NCBI GenBank assembly: GCA_030694975.1
Contig: JAUYTU010000035.1
Coordinates: 62,001-126,000, forward strand
From: Erysipelotrichaceae bacterium
GTDB taxonomy: Bacteria > Bacillota_I > Bacilli_A > Erysipelotrichales > Erysipelotrichaceae
Length of the DNA: 64,000 nt
Reading direction: 5' to 3'
Shown here piece after piece: positions 33,710 to 37,354 of the stretch. Within the stretch, counting starts at the first letter, position 1; each line of letters begins with the position of its first letter. The translations under genes and the position numbers were made by a program. The notes beneath the pieces are model-generated. The model was not told the origin of the DNA, did not search any database, and was given only the letters and a program-made list of their open reading frames with translations.

Positions 33710-34282
33710 TTAGAACAAACTTTGCTGTATCCGCATGGATGTAATGTCAAAATTCCATTTCCGCGGTGTCAATATCGCATTCTCATGGATATCGAAACTT
33801 AAATAAGGCTCGATATCTTTTTTATTCAGAAAAACCGGTTGTCGGTTATGGATGACTTCAAAATCCGGCTGCGCAGCTTGTGTTAAAATCGCAAACATCC
33901 GCTGACCGTCCTTGATCTGATAGACGCCGGCCATGTACTGGACGGACTGATCTTTCAAGCGAATCAGATAACGGTCCTTGTGCTGATCCCACTCATAAAA
34001 TCCCGAAGCCAAGATGATACAGCGATTGTGCTCAAAGGATGTTTTAAAGAAAGGACTGCTCGCCACCGTTTCCTGACGGGCATTGATGATCCGTCCCTTA
34101 TCATCCCATTTGACAAACCCCCATTGCATGCCCGTGGTCATCAGCGATTCATTTTTAACAATAACCAACGACGATTGAGTAGGGTAGACTTCATGGGTCG
34201 AAAATTTCGTGCCTGGCTCTGCCATAGCAACCCATTCTTGCATCTCTTCATCCTTCTCAACAAATAAATAGCGACCGCACAT
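33710..34282 (-). CDS. SRAP-domain protein (YedK/HMCES-like abasic-site sensor)
   Basis: The SRAP fold crosslinks to abasic sites in single-stranded DNA through Cys2 once the initiator Met is removed. With start ATG 34282 the protein begins MCGRYLFVE, placing Cys2 correctly; an upstream start would destroy this and is rejected. Other catalytic residues are visible in INARQETV (Asn), SGFYEWD (Glu) and VIHNRQPV (His). It has 190 residues. It is the last gene of the dinB operon, fitting a DNA-damage response. Confidence 0.92.
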   Translation of the reverse strand: MCGRYLFVEKDEEMQEWVAMAEPGTKFSTHEVYPTQSSLVIVKNESLMTTGMQWGFVKWDDKGRIINARQETVASSPFFKTSFEHNRCIILASGFYEWDQHKDRYLIRLKDQSVQYMAGVYQIKDGQRMFAILTQAAQPDFEVIHNRQPVFLNKKDIEPYLSFDIHENAILTPRKWNFDITSMRIQQSLF

Positions 34283-34284
34283 CG

Positions 34285-34524
34285 TCAGTCTCCCTTCTCG
34301 ATAAACCAACGATCCTCTTCCAGAAACAAATAACGACTTGCTCCCTGAATGATGCAGGTATATCGGACACCGGCTCCACCAGCCTTTAGTGAAGCGGCCA
34401 AAGCCACATGCGTAACCTTATCTATAGCATATTTTACACCATTTTTCCAAATGATGACCAACGGTTTGATTTTTCCATCCGCCTGATGATGCACAATCAC
34501 ATCCACATACATTTTACTTGTCAT
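34285..34524 (-). CDS. Hypothetical 79-residue protein of the dinB operon
   Basis: Soluble, no cysteine in its N-terminal half, with the pattern MYVDVIVHHQADGKIKPLVIIWKNGVKY near the start and YTCIIQGASRYLFLEEDRWF at the end, suggesting a small beta-barrel. It lies between dinB and the SRAP gene: three bases after the dinB stop and two bases before the SRAP start. I recall small proteins of this type beside Y-family polymerases in Firmicutes, but cannot assign a family. Possibly a polymerase accessory factor (inference). Confidence 0.75.
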   Translation of the reverse strand: MTSKMYVDVIVHHQADGKIKPLVIIWKNGVKYAIDKVTHVALAASLKAGGAGVRYTCIIQGASRYLFLEEDRWFIEKGD

Positions 34525-34527
34525 TTT

Positions 34528-35781
34528 TTATTCACCCGCCTTAAAATAACCCTCCGGAAAGATGACATGCTCACCCTTGGGATTAAACCCGCTCAACAAC
34601 GTATCTGACTTCATACAACCCCGCTGAATCCGATAAAAACCAAATCGCTGCCGCACCTGATCGAACGCCTTATCAATCGCCGACTCTCGCTCTCGCAACG
34701 CCTGATCGGTAAAAAAAGACAACTGAACAGCACTGTTTCCGACACTCAGATCACTGGCCTTGACCCCGATGCTGCGCAATGGCTTCGAAAAATCGATATT
34801 CTCACGAAACAAACGCATCGCACTTTGAGCAATCTCACGGCTGATATCCGTCGGATACTCCAATTTGCACTGACGGGTAAAATGCTCGAGCTCATTGTCA
34901 CGGACATACACCGTTAACGTTGAACATTTGAACTGATGATCCCGCAGACGCGCCGCCACACTCTCCGCCAATACATGAGTAATGATACTGATATCCTGCC
35001 AACAAGTTAAATCACGCGGAGCCGTCGTGCTGTTACCGATGGATTTGACATACGGCTCATACAACTGAGGAAGTACCGGACTGTGCTCCTCACCGTTGGC
35101 AAACACCCAGATATATTCACCCCACTTACCCAAACGCCGCTTTAAAAAAGCCGGATCGGCATTCGCCAAATCACCAATGGTATAGATTCCGTAACGATTG
35201 AGCTTCTTGGTGGTTGCATAACCGACATATAACAAATCACTGACCGGCAAAGGAAAAACGATATCCTTCATATTTTGGCGGGTGATGACCGTCGTTGCAT
35301 TCGGCTTTTTATAATCCGAACCCAACTTCGCAAAAACCTTATTGAAACTGACCCCGACCGACGCCGTGATTCCCAATTCCTGATGGATCGTCTGACGAAT
35401 CTCATCCGCAATTTTCTTGCCATCCCCAAACAATTGTACGCTGCCCGTGACATCCAACCAGGCCTCATCGATCCCAAAAGATTCGATGCGATCGGTGTAA
35501 CGCGCAAAAATATCCCGCACTTTCTGTGAAAAACGCATATACAGACTGAAACGGGGAGGGACAACGACCAACCCCGGACATTTCGCCATGGCCTGCCAAA
35601 TCGCCTCACCGGTTTTAATTTCATACTTCTTTGCCGGCTGATTTTTTGCTAAAATAATACCGTGGCGCTTTTCGATGTCACCACCCACCGCCATCGGCAC
35701 ATTGCGAAGCGAAGGATTGTAAAGACACTCCACCGAGGCATAAAAACTGTTCAAGTCACAATGCAGAATGACTCGTTCCAT
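34528..35781 (-). CDS. dinB: Y-family DNA polymerase (DinB/UmuC-like)
   Basis: Error-prone polymerase that copies past lesions. The N-terminal catalytic aspartate is in ILHCDLNSFYASVE, the SxDE motif is IESFGIDEAWLDVTG, and TASVGVSFNKVFAKLGSDYKKP follows, then a helix-hairpin-helix and little-finger region. Start ATG 35781 (protein MERVILHCD) is set by GGAG with good spacing, giving 417 residues. It is the first gene of an operon controlled by the operator at 35806-35826. Confidence 0.94.
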   Translation of the reverse strand: MERVILHCDLNSFYASVECLYNPSLRNVPMAVGGDIEKRHGIILAKNQPAKKYEIKTGEAIWQAMAKCPGLVVVPPRFSLYMRFSQKVRDIFARYTDRIESFGIDEAWLDVTGSVQLFGDGKKIADEIRQTIHQELGITASVGVSFNKVFAKLGSDYKKPNATTVITRQNMKDIVFPLPVSDLLYVGYATTKKLNRYGIYTIGDLANADPAFLKRRLGKWGEYIWVFANGEEHSPVLPQLYEPYVKSIGNSTTAPRDLTCWQDISIITHVLAESVAARLRDHQFKCSTLTVYVRDNELEHFTRQCKLEYPTDISREIAQSAMRLFRENIDFSKPLRSIGVKASDLSVGNSAVQLSFFTDQALRERESAIDKAFDQVRQRFGFYRIQRGCMKSDTLLSGFNPKGEHVIFPEGYFKAGE

Positions 35782-35801
35782 ACACATCACTCCTTACCCA
35801 T

Positions 35802-35830
35802 ATTTTACTTGAAAATAATTCAAGTAGCAA
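35802..35830 (-). promoter_or_regulatory. dinB promoter
   Basis: On the minus strand TTGCTA (35830-35825), 17 bases, TAAAAT (35807-35802). The spacer is almost entirely the palindromic operator 1. Confidence 0.75.
35806..35826. promoter_or_regulatory. SOS-type operator 1 (dinB side)
   Basis: TACTTGAA-N5-TTCAAGTA, 8-base perfect arms. It fills the spacer of the dinB promoter, so a bound repressor would block polymerase. The sequence is identical in both arms to operator 2. Confidence 0.85.
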
Positions 35831-35834
35831 TAAA

Positions 35835-35855
35835 TACTTGAAAAATATTCAAGTA
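35835..35855. promoter_or_regulatory. SOS-type operator 2 (repressor side)
   Basis: Second copy of TACTTGAA-N5-TTCAAGTA, 29 bases from operator 1 centre to centre. It overlaps the -35 of the repressor promoter, TTGAAA (35838-35843), 17 bases, TATGAT (35861-35866), giving autorepression. Confidence 0.85.
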
Positions 35856-35882
35856 CTTGCTATGATAAAGTCGGGTGATACT

Positions 35883-36490: not shown

Positions 36491-37354
36491 ATGACACTAG
36501 ACCAATTTCAGGAAATTTCCAAAGAAATCTTCGAGCAGGGGATCGTCGGATTTGCCATCACGTTGCTGTCGATTTCAATTTTGACGTTTATTGCTATCAA
36601 AGCAAGCAAACGCTTTTTTGCTTCACTGCAAAAGCGCAATCGGATTGACGAAATGACACGCCGCTTTTCATTTCGGTTGGTTTCAGTATTTATCTATACA
36701 TTCGCCATATTTGGCGTCGTAACTCAGATCGTTCCCTTAAAAAGTACGGCCTTATCACTGTTGGCCGGGTCCGGTATTGCGGTAATATTCATCGGATTCG
36801 CAGCCCAGGAAGCATTCTCGAATATTATTGCCGGATTCTTCATTTCCTTTTACCGGCCATTTTCAGTGGGGGACTTGGTGAACCTGCCGGGTCAAAACAT
36901 CACAGGGCGGGTAGAAGATATCAATTTAAGACATACCGTACTGCGTACTTTTGAGAATAATCGAATCATTATCCCCAACTCGACCATGAATAAATCGGTT
37001 TTAGAGAACAGGGATGCCATTGAAAGGAAAGTTTGCAACTTCCTGATATTTTCAATAAGTTATGATTCGGATGTTGATAAAGCGAAAGCGATTATCATTG
37101 AAGAAGCGCTTGCGCATCCCAAACTGATTGATGTGCGCACAGATGAGGAAATTGAAAATCAGGTGCCACAGGTGAATCCGATCTTGTATTCGCTGAATAA
37201 TTCCAGTGTAGATCTGCGGGTCGGTTTATGGACAAGAGAGGCTGCGGATGGTTATAATATGTTGGGTGATTTGCGTGATTCCATCAAGAAGCGCTTCGAT
37301 AAAGAAGGCATCGAGATTCCGTATCCGTATCAAAATGTTATTATAAAGAAATAA
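36491..37354 (+). CDS. mscS: Small-conductance mechanosensitive channel (MscS family)
   Basis: Heptameric channel released by membrane tension on osmotic downshock. Three hydrophobic segments (about 18-38, 62-85, 93-115) with the pore-helix block LLAGSGIAVIFIGFAAQEAFSNIIAGFF are followed by the beta domain FSVGDLVNLPGQNITGRVEDINLRHTVLRT and IPNSTMNKSVLEN. The 287 residues match the MscS size. It follows the repressor gene closely, with GGGAGAG as SD. Co-transcription with the repressor is possible. Confidence 0.92.
   Translation: MTLDQFQEISKEIFEQGIVGFAITLLSISILTFIAIKASKRFFASLQKRNRIDEMTRRFSFRLVSVFIYTFAIFGVVTQIVPLKSTALSLLAGSGIAVIFIGFAAQEAFSNIIAGFFISFYRPFSVGDLVNLPGQNITGRVEDINLRHTVLRTFENNRIIIPNSTMNKSVLENRDAIERKVCNFLIFSISYDSDVDKAKAIIIEEALAHPKLIDVRTDEEIENQVPQVNPILYSLNNSSVDLRVGLWTREAADGYNMLGDLRDSIKKRFDKEGIEIPYPYQNVIIKK

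Follow-up and report, generated by a model that had tools for sequence, protein, structure and literature searches.

How do the Erysipelotrichaceae, which belong to a common gut group (the Erysipelotrichia, including Holdemania and Erysipelothrix), control translesion synthesis if LexA is missing? We approached this question through a locus in which dinB, the gene for Y-family DNA polymerase IV, and the gene for an HdiR/LexA-like repressor face away from each other across a short intergenic region, within a window of 64,000 nucleotides from an Erysipelotrichaceae bacterium (GCA_030694975.1, contig JAUYTU010000035.1).

Two operators between dinB and a repressor gene

An earlier note on this DNA had described two palindromic operators with the same arms between dinB and the repressor gene, and both are present exactly at the coordinates in Table 1. 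They are perfect palindromes with identical 8-bp arms, TACTTGAA-N5-TTCAAGTA, and lie 29 bp apart. When the whole window was scanned for the operator word with up to three mismatches, only one other place was found, and it was unrelated. An independent consensus scan returned the same two promoters that had been proposed before, with operator 1 occupying the spacer of the predicted dinB promoter and the -35 of the predicted repressor promoter lying within operator 2. An SOS regulon has operators at the gene of a translesion polymerase and at that of its own regulator, and both were found here.

Table 1. Genes, operators and predicted promoters of the dinB/repressor locus, in window coordinates
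Feature	Coordinates	Strand	Basis
SRAP domain protein (HMCES/YedK-type abasic-site protein)	33710..34309	-	SRAP 4.9e-40
79-aa conserved protein, dinB operon	34285..34524	-	Conserved adjoining dinB
dinB, Y-family DNA polymerase IV	34528..35790	-	IMS 2.9e-45; NCBIfam PRK03103 above cut-off
Predicted dinB promoter	35802..35830	-	-35 TTGCTA, 17-bp spacer, -10 TAAAAT; consensus scan
Operator 1	35806..35826	.	TACTTGAA-AATAA-TTCAAGTA; exact match; conserved in genus and family
Operator 2	35835..35855	.	TACTTGAA-AAATA-TTCAAGTA; exact match; conserved
Predicted repressor promoter	35838..35866	+	-35 TTGAAA, 17-bp spacer, -10 TATGAT; consensus scan
HdiR/LexA-like repressor, 198 aa	35883..36479	+	HTH_3 and S24; Pfam, alignments, structure model
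MscS-type mechanosensitive channel	36491..37354	+	MS_channel_2nd 2.2e-19

The genes on either side were characterized in the same way. For dinB, the ATG at 35781 is the more likely start. The 79-aa protein is kept next to dinB across the Erysipelotrichaceae (37-92% identity); at E 0.001 neither Pfam nor NCBIfam assigned it to a family, and a fold search with its model, which is all-beta and confident (pLDDT 88), returned no PDB match at the same threshold. It is a candidate translesion accessory protein. The abasic-site protein that had been placed in the dinB operon from sequence alone was borne out by a Pfam SRAP match, and would be expected to begin with Met-Cys-Gly-Arg at 34282. On the other strand, mscS starts 11 bp behind the repressor gene and is probably co-transcribed with it. 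Since this gene order is conserved across the window genus and one further genome group (L055/L056), the MscS channel may be damage-controlled.

A phage-type repressor with a Gly-Gly scissile site

In Pfam, the repressor matches HTH_3 (6.6e-14), which contains the recognition-helix segment KSFTTIQKWEDG, and Peptidase_S24 (1.5e-25). Its Ser113 and Lys150, which had been read earlier as a catalytic dyad with LexA spacing, do lie 37 residues apart as in the Ser/Lys dyad of canonical LexA, and an alignment of 25 homologues shows no change at either residue or at the P1' glycine. At the scissile position the protein has Gly80-Gly81 rather than Ala-Gly. P1 is Gly in the window genus; the other homologues have Gly, Thr or Ala there, with Thr-Gly in Anaerorhabdus furcosa. 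In S24 SOS repressors the scissile determinant is Ala-Gly or Cys-Gly (PMC8565304), neither of which the window repressor has, and in the LexA of Synechocystis Gly-Gly occurs together with a change of Ser to Asp and cleavage is thought to be lost (PMC3091678). Because the scissile site is Gly-Gly, we regard RecA-triggered self-cleavage of this repressor as less certain than the first reading of the locus implied.

The AlphaFold2 model of the repressor (mean pLDDT 85.7) joins two domains with different structural relatives in the PDB: the C-terminal domain matches LexA C-terminal domains at 1.9-2.3 Å, LexA on RecA filaments included, and the N-terminal domain matches the HTH of ImmR and DdrO, not the LexA winged helix. 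Relatives of the repressor occur in 231 phage records, the best of them 38% identical, which is consistent with a phage origin.

Searching the relatives with the canonical LexA profile TIGR00498, which detects LexA in the E. coli and B. subtilis controls, we found that none of 60 scored above the cut-off (110.95 bits). The window repressor itself reaches 88 bits, below that cut-off and over residues 71-189 only, and its N-terminus is HTH_3, with no match to the winged helix (PF01726) of canonical LexA. One PF01726 match in the same genome (C27:1360) was rejected as LexA; it is a GntR-like regulator of 125 aa whose gene adjoins one for an ABC transporter. The genome encodes two S24 proteins, namely the window repressor and a second repressor (L017, G000:C38:125149) that adjoins a phage-type integrase, as part of a mobile element that might respond to the same damage signal.

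Pairing of the operator word with the repressor across the family

With up to one mismatch, the operator word was found upstream of 21 of the 25 family repressor genes. Among the 420 words compared, the next best of the 419 shuffled palindromic words of equal composition occurred in 1 of the 25 upstream regions. The 5-bp spacer alone gives this signal, as other spacers yielded at most 3 upstream regions each; from genus to genus both arms and their distance of 5 bp are kept and the spacer bases vary. The pairing also follows the recognition helix: an operator (≤2 mismatches) lies no more than 150 bp from 30 of the 33 repressors with a KSFTT helix and from none of the 8 S24 repressors with other helices (Fisher p 1.7e-6). 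It holds, too, at five loci where dinB is not a neighbour (L054, L059, L061, L064 and L066). Where sites occur in duplicate, the distance between them is usually 28 to 31 bp, or about three helical turns, and cooperative binding at paired operators is possible.

At another locus of the family (L040 in G012, upstream of 1501), a dinB-adjacent S24 repressor has a different HTH and is without the ACTTGAA operator, in place of which the region carries GTTCC/GGAAC repeats. This suggests that HTH and operator were exchanged together.

Reach of the operator in the window genome and in relatives

In the window genome (2.19 Mb, 99.6% complete), the only operator sites with up to one mismatch genome-wide are the two at dinB and the repressor. 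The further operators near recA, uvrA and lexA-like genes, for which the earlier note had proposed a genome search at this stringency, were not found, and no operator lies in the promoters of recA, uvrA and uvrB in the window genome or its genus. Two matches with two mismatches were rejected, both being inside genes, as were the matches with three mismatches, none of those inspected being at a known repair gene. Given that no further operators lie near repair genes in this genome, the sequence points to a local two-promoter dinB/repressor cassette, not a global SOS network, in the window organism; with no operator at its own recA, uvrA or uvrB, the case for a damage role comes from the dinB cassette and from analogy within the family. 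The compact SOS-like switch proposed earlier, made up of dinB, the repressor and a non-LexA operator, is well supported by comparison, and has no wider network in its own genome.

Operators at recA and excision-repair genes, a further feature of SOS regulons, were found in relatives. For the regulon claim we used a scan of 272 family genomes that were not chosen for any gene, in which 42 genomes contained a total of 71 exact operator sites; the reversed control word gave 7. Among the 30 site loci listed, 17 are at dinB and/or the repressor, and the other 13 include three before uvrA, two before pgsA, the first gene of the recA operon, and one before a second Y-family polymerase. By a rough estimate, a site placed at random would fall into a 300-bp promoter of this kind well under once in a thousand times.

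We also performed a promoter test in 28 genomes, which were partly chosen for operator sites, so that its numbers are inflated and partly circular: in this set the operator is present at uvrA in five genomes (G073, G245, G063, G105 and G035), at uvrB in one (G073) and, with up to one mismatch, at pgsA-recA in G008, G120, G245 and G125. G286 has a pgsA-recA operator as well and G073 has one with two mismatches, giving six genomes with pgsA-(cinA)-recA sites. G073 is A. furcosa ATCC 25662 (locus on C10, as in NZ_FUWY01000008.1), which in addition carries an operator before alkA-ogt. Every genome with a repair-gene site that was checked has a KSFTT-type repressor. In the repressor tree, the recA-operon and uvrA sites fall in several separate clades, which implies repeated gains or losses. 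The presence of the operator at uvrA, uvrB and the recA operon in several relatives supports the SOS reading for the family.

Some sites were set aside. Lone exact sites in G060 (at an ssb-like gene) and G278, two genomes with no KSFTT repressor, are probably due to chance, and the site in G107, upstream of recA, lies within a gene, cinA. In A. furcosa, an operator with one mismatch lies 116 bp upstream of mraZ (L106, 2450), which heads the division gene cluster; as a site in a single genome it was not counted, and it possibly reflects either a link to division arrest or chance.

A proposed damage switch and its rivals

Taking these results together, we consider it probable that the locus is a self-contained damage switch, in which a co-opted repressor of phage type takes the place of LexA in the Erysipelotrichaceae. 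A chromosomal repressor with a cI-like HTH and a LexA-type S24 domain would bind ACTTGAA-N5-TTCAAGT as a dimer at two sites. On operator 1 it would block the dinB promoter through its spacer and keep dinB-79aa-SRAP off, and on operator 2 it would block its own promoter through the -35 and keep the repressor-mscS operon off. Upon damage, RecA on single-stranded DNA would lead the repressor to inactivate itself, and both promoters would open. The dinB-79aa-SRAP operon would then provide translesion synthesis and abasic-site protection; polymerase, SRAP protein and new repressor would be made until the damage clears, and autoregulation would reset the switch. In the window genus the cassette alone would be controlled, and in other genera the operator would have been placed or kept before uvrA, uvrB and the recA operon. 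We infer binding, repression, RecA-triggered cleavage at Gly80-Gly81 and induction by damage: the repressor and operator half of this mechanism draws on sequence and conservation, and the half concerned with RecA cleavage and induction draws on what is known of the protein family.

This mechanism is weakest at the Gly-Gly scissile bond, from which its main rival arises. In that rival the repressor binds the operators and is either inactivated by a signal other than RecA and DNA damage or not cleavable at all, so that mutagenesis would be under stress control or constitutive. The scissile Gly-Gly of the window genus and Thr-Gly of A. furcosa, compared with Ala-Gly, favor this explanation, and a RecA-independent LexA-like protein, IrvR, is reported in Streptococcus mutans (PMC7101444). 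Against it, the dyad and the P1' glycine are invariant in all 25 homologues, and homologues with Ala-Gly, Thr-Gly and Gly-Gly have the operator and gene partners in common. The operators at uvrA, uvrB and recA operons in relatives also speak against it, as does the predicted C-terminal domain in its likeness to RecA-bound LexA. We consider a signal other than RecA and DNA damage, or an uncleavable repressor, unlikely.

The damage role itself could be doubted if this were an autoregulated repressor of a phage or other element that merely adjoins dinB, with the palindromes as its own operators. Its HTH_3 and S24 architecture is that of phage repressors and it has the many phage relatives described above, but no integrase or phage genes lie beside it, the dinB-79aa(-SRAP) partnership is retained in many genera, one operator sits within the dinB promoter itself, and in relatives the operator is found at the unlinked uvrA, uvrB and pgsA-recA; we judge such a chance neighbour to be very improbable. 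It is scarcely credible that the palindromes are two overlapping -35-like TTGAA elements and no protein-binding sites. TTGAAA within the operator word does form the -35 of the predicted repressor promoter, yet both arms and their spacing are kept across genera as the spacer bases change, and at dinB the site is the promoter spacer, not the -35.

Implications for SOS regulation in the family

A broader reading, which we favor with modest confidence, is that the Erysipelotrichaceae run an SOS response without LexA by means of a captured phage-type repressor that reads ACTTGAA-N5-TTCAAGT. The regulon would then be seen at different stages within one family, from a two-promoter dinB cassette in the window genus to a set including uvrA, uvrB, the recA operon and alkA-ogt in A. 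furcosa, with the cleavage site relaxed to Gly-Gly or Thr-Gly. If this is true, the genera of the family form a living series in which the proposed growth of SOS networks out of self-contained divergent units could be followed. As some genera have the operator at two promoters and others at many, the model of rebuilding by captured phage repressors and their divergent partners (PMC13148647) becomes directly testable. A defined operator and repressor would also make the damage response of the Erysipelotrichia predictable and testable, and scissile bonds of the Gly-Gly or Thr-Gly type alongside an intact dyad would provide a test of how strict the S24 cleavage site is.

Comparison with known systems

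Canonical LexA of E. coli and B. subtilis shares with the window repressor the S24 domain and a Ser/Lys dyad 37 residues apart, but differs in its winged HTH (PF01726), in its profile, for which the window repressor scores below the cut-off, and in its box. UmuDAb of Acinetobacter, a genus that lacks LexA, is an S24 repressor as well and controls error-prone polymerases. The arms of its operator, ACTTGAA and TTCAAGT, are the same as those here, although they are 11 bp apart compared with 5 bp; UmuDAb is also derived from UmuD, needs DdrR and depends on an essential GTnAC core (PMC11332147). The identity of the arms is probably a coincidence, since both operators embed a TTGA-type -35.

The locus works like systems in which a phage repressor was co-opted. 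FddR of Francisella is such a repressor; it belongs to a divergent unit that is complete in itself, and in some species dinB is the gene on the opposite side. Its operator is GTG-N11-CAC and no extension to recA or uvrA genes is reported there (PMC13148647). The non-canonical LexA of Bacteroidetes is likewise a phage-like S24 repressor that runs an SOS regulon without LexA, and its palindromes, CTAA-N5-TTAG and GGA-N5-TCC, also have a 5-bp spacer; the word and the lineage differ, and that system was shown experimentally and has an Ala-Gly scissile bond, whereas the present one is read from sequence and has Gly-Gly (PMC8565304).

A further counterpart is HdiR of Lactococcus lactis and Streptococcus, likewise an HTH and S24 repressor in bacteria without LexA that controls itself and an error-prone polymerase. 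Its reach extends to the recA operon in some species, and the L. lactis protein groups with phage repressors of Streptococcus (PMC8565304). Processing of the cleaved product by ClpP is a further mark of HdiR. The window repressor, with HTH_3 and S24 domains and a gene divergent from that of a Y-family polymerase in a genome without LexA, fits this description. It differs in its scissile Gly-Gly and in its operator, which is ACTTGAA-N5-TTCAAGT here compared with tttATCAGtTtttCTGATaaa in L. lactis (PMC1592510) and is not of the HdiR form ATCAG...CTGAT. Given this difference in operator, we do not file the window repressor as HdiR.

Our searches of the open-licence literature, which give weak evidence, found no description of SOS or LexA in Erysipelotrichia and none of an ACTTGAA-N5-TTCAAGT operator for any such repressor. 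That a phage-type S24 repressor can take over damage control where LexA is missing is already known from HdiR, FddR and the Bacteroidetes LexA; the operator described here appears to be new.
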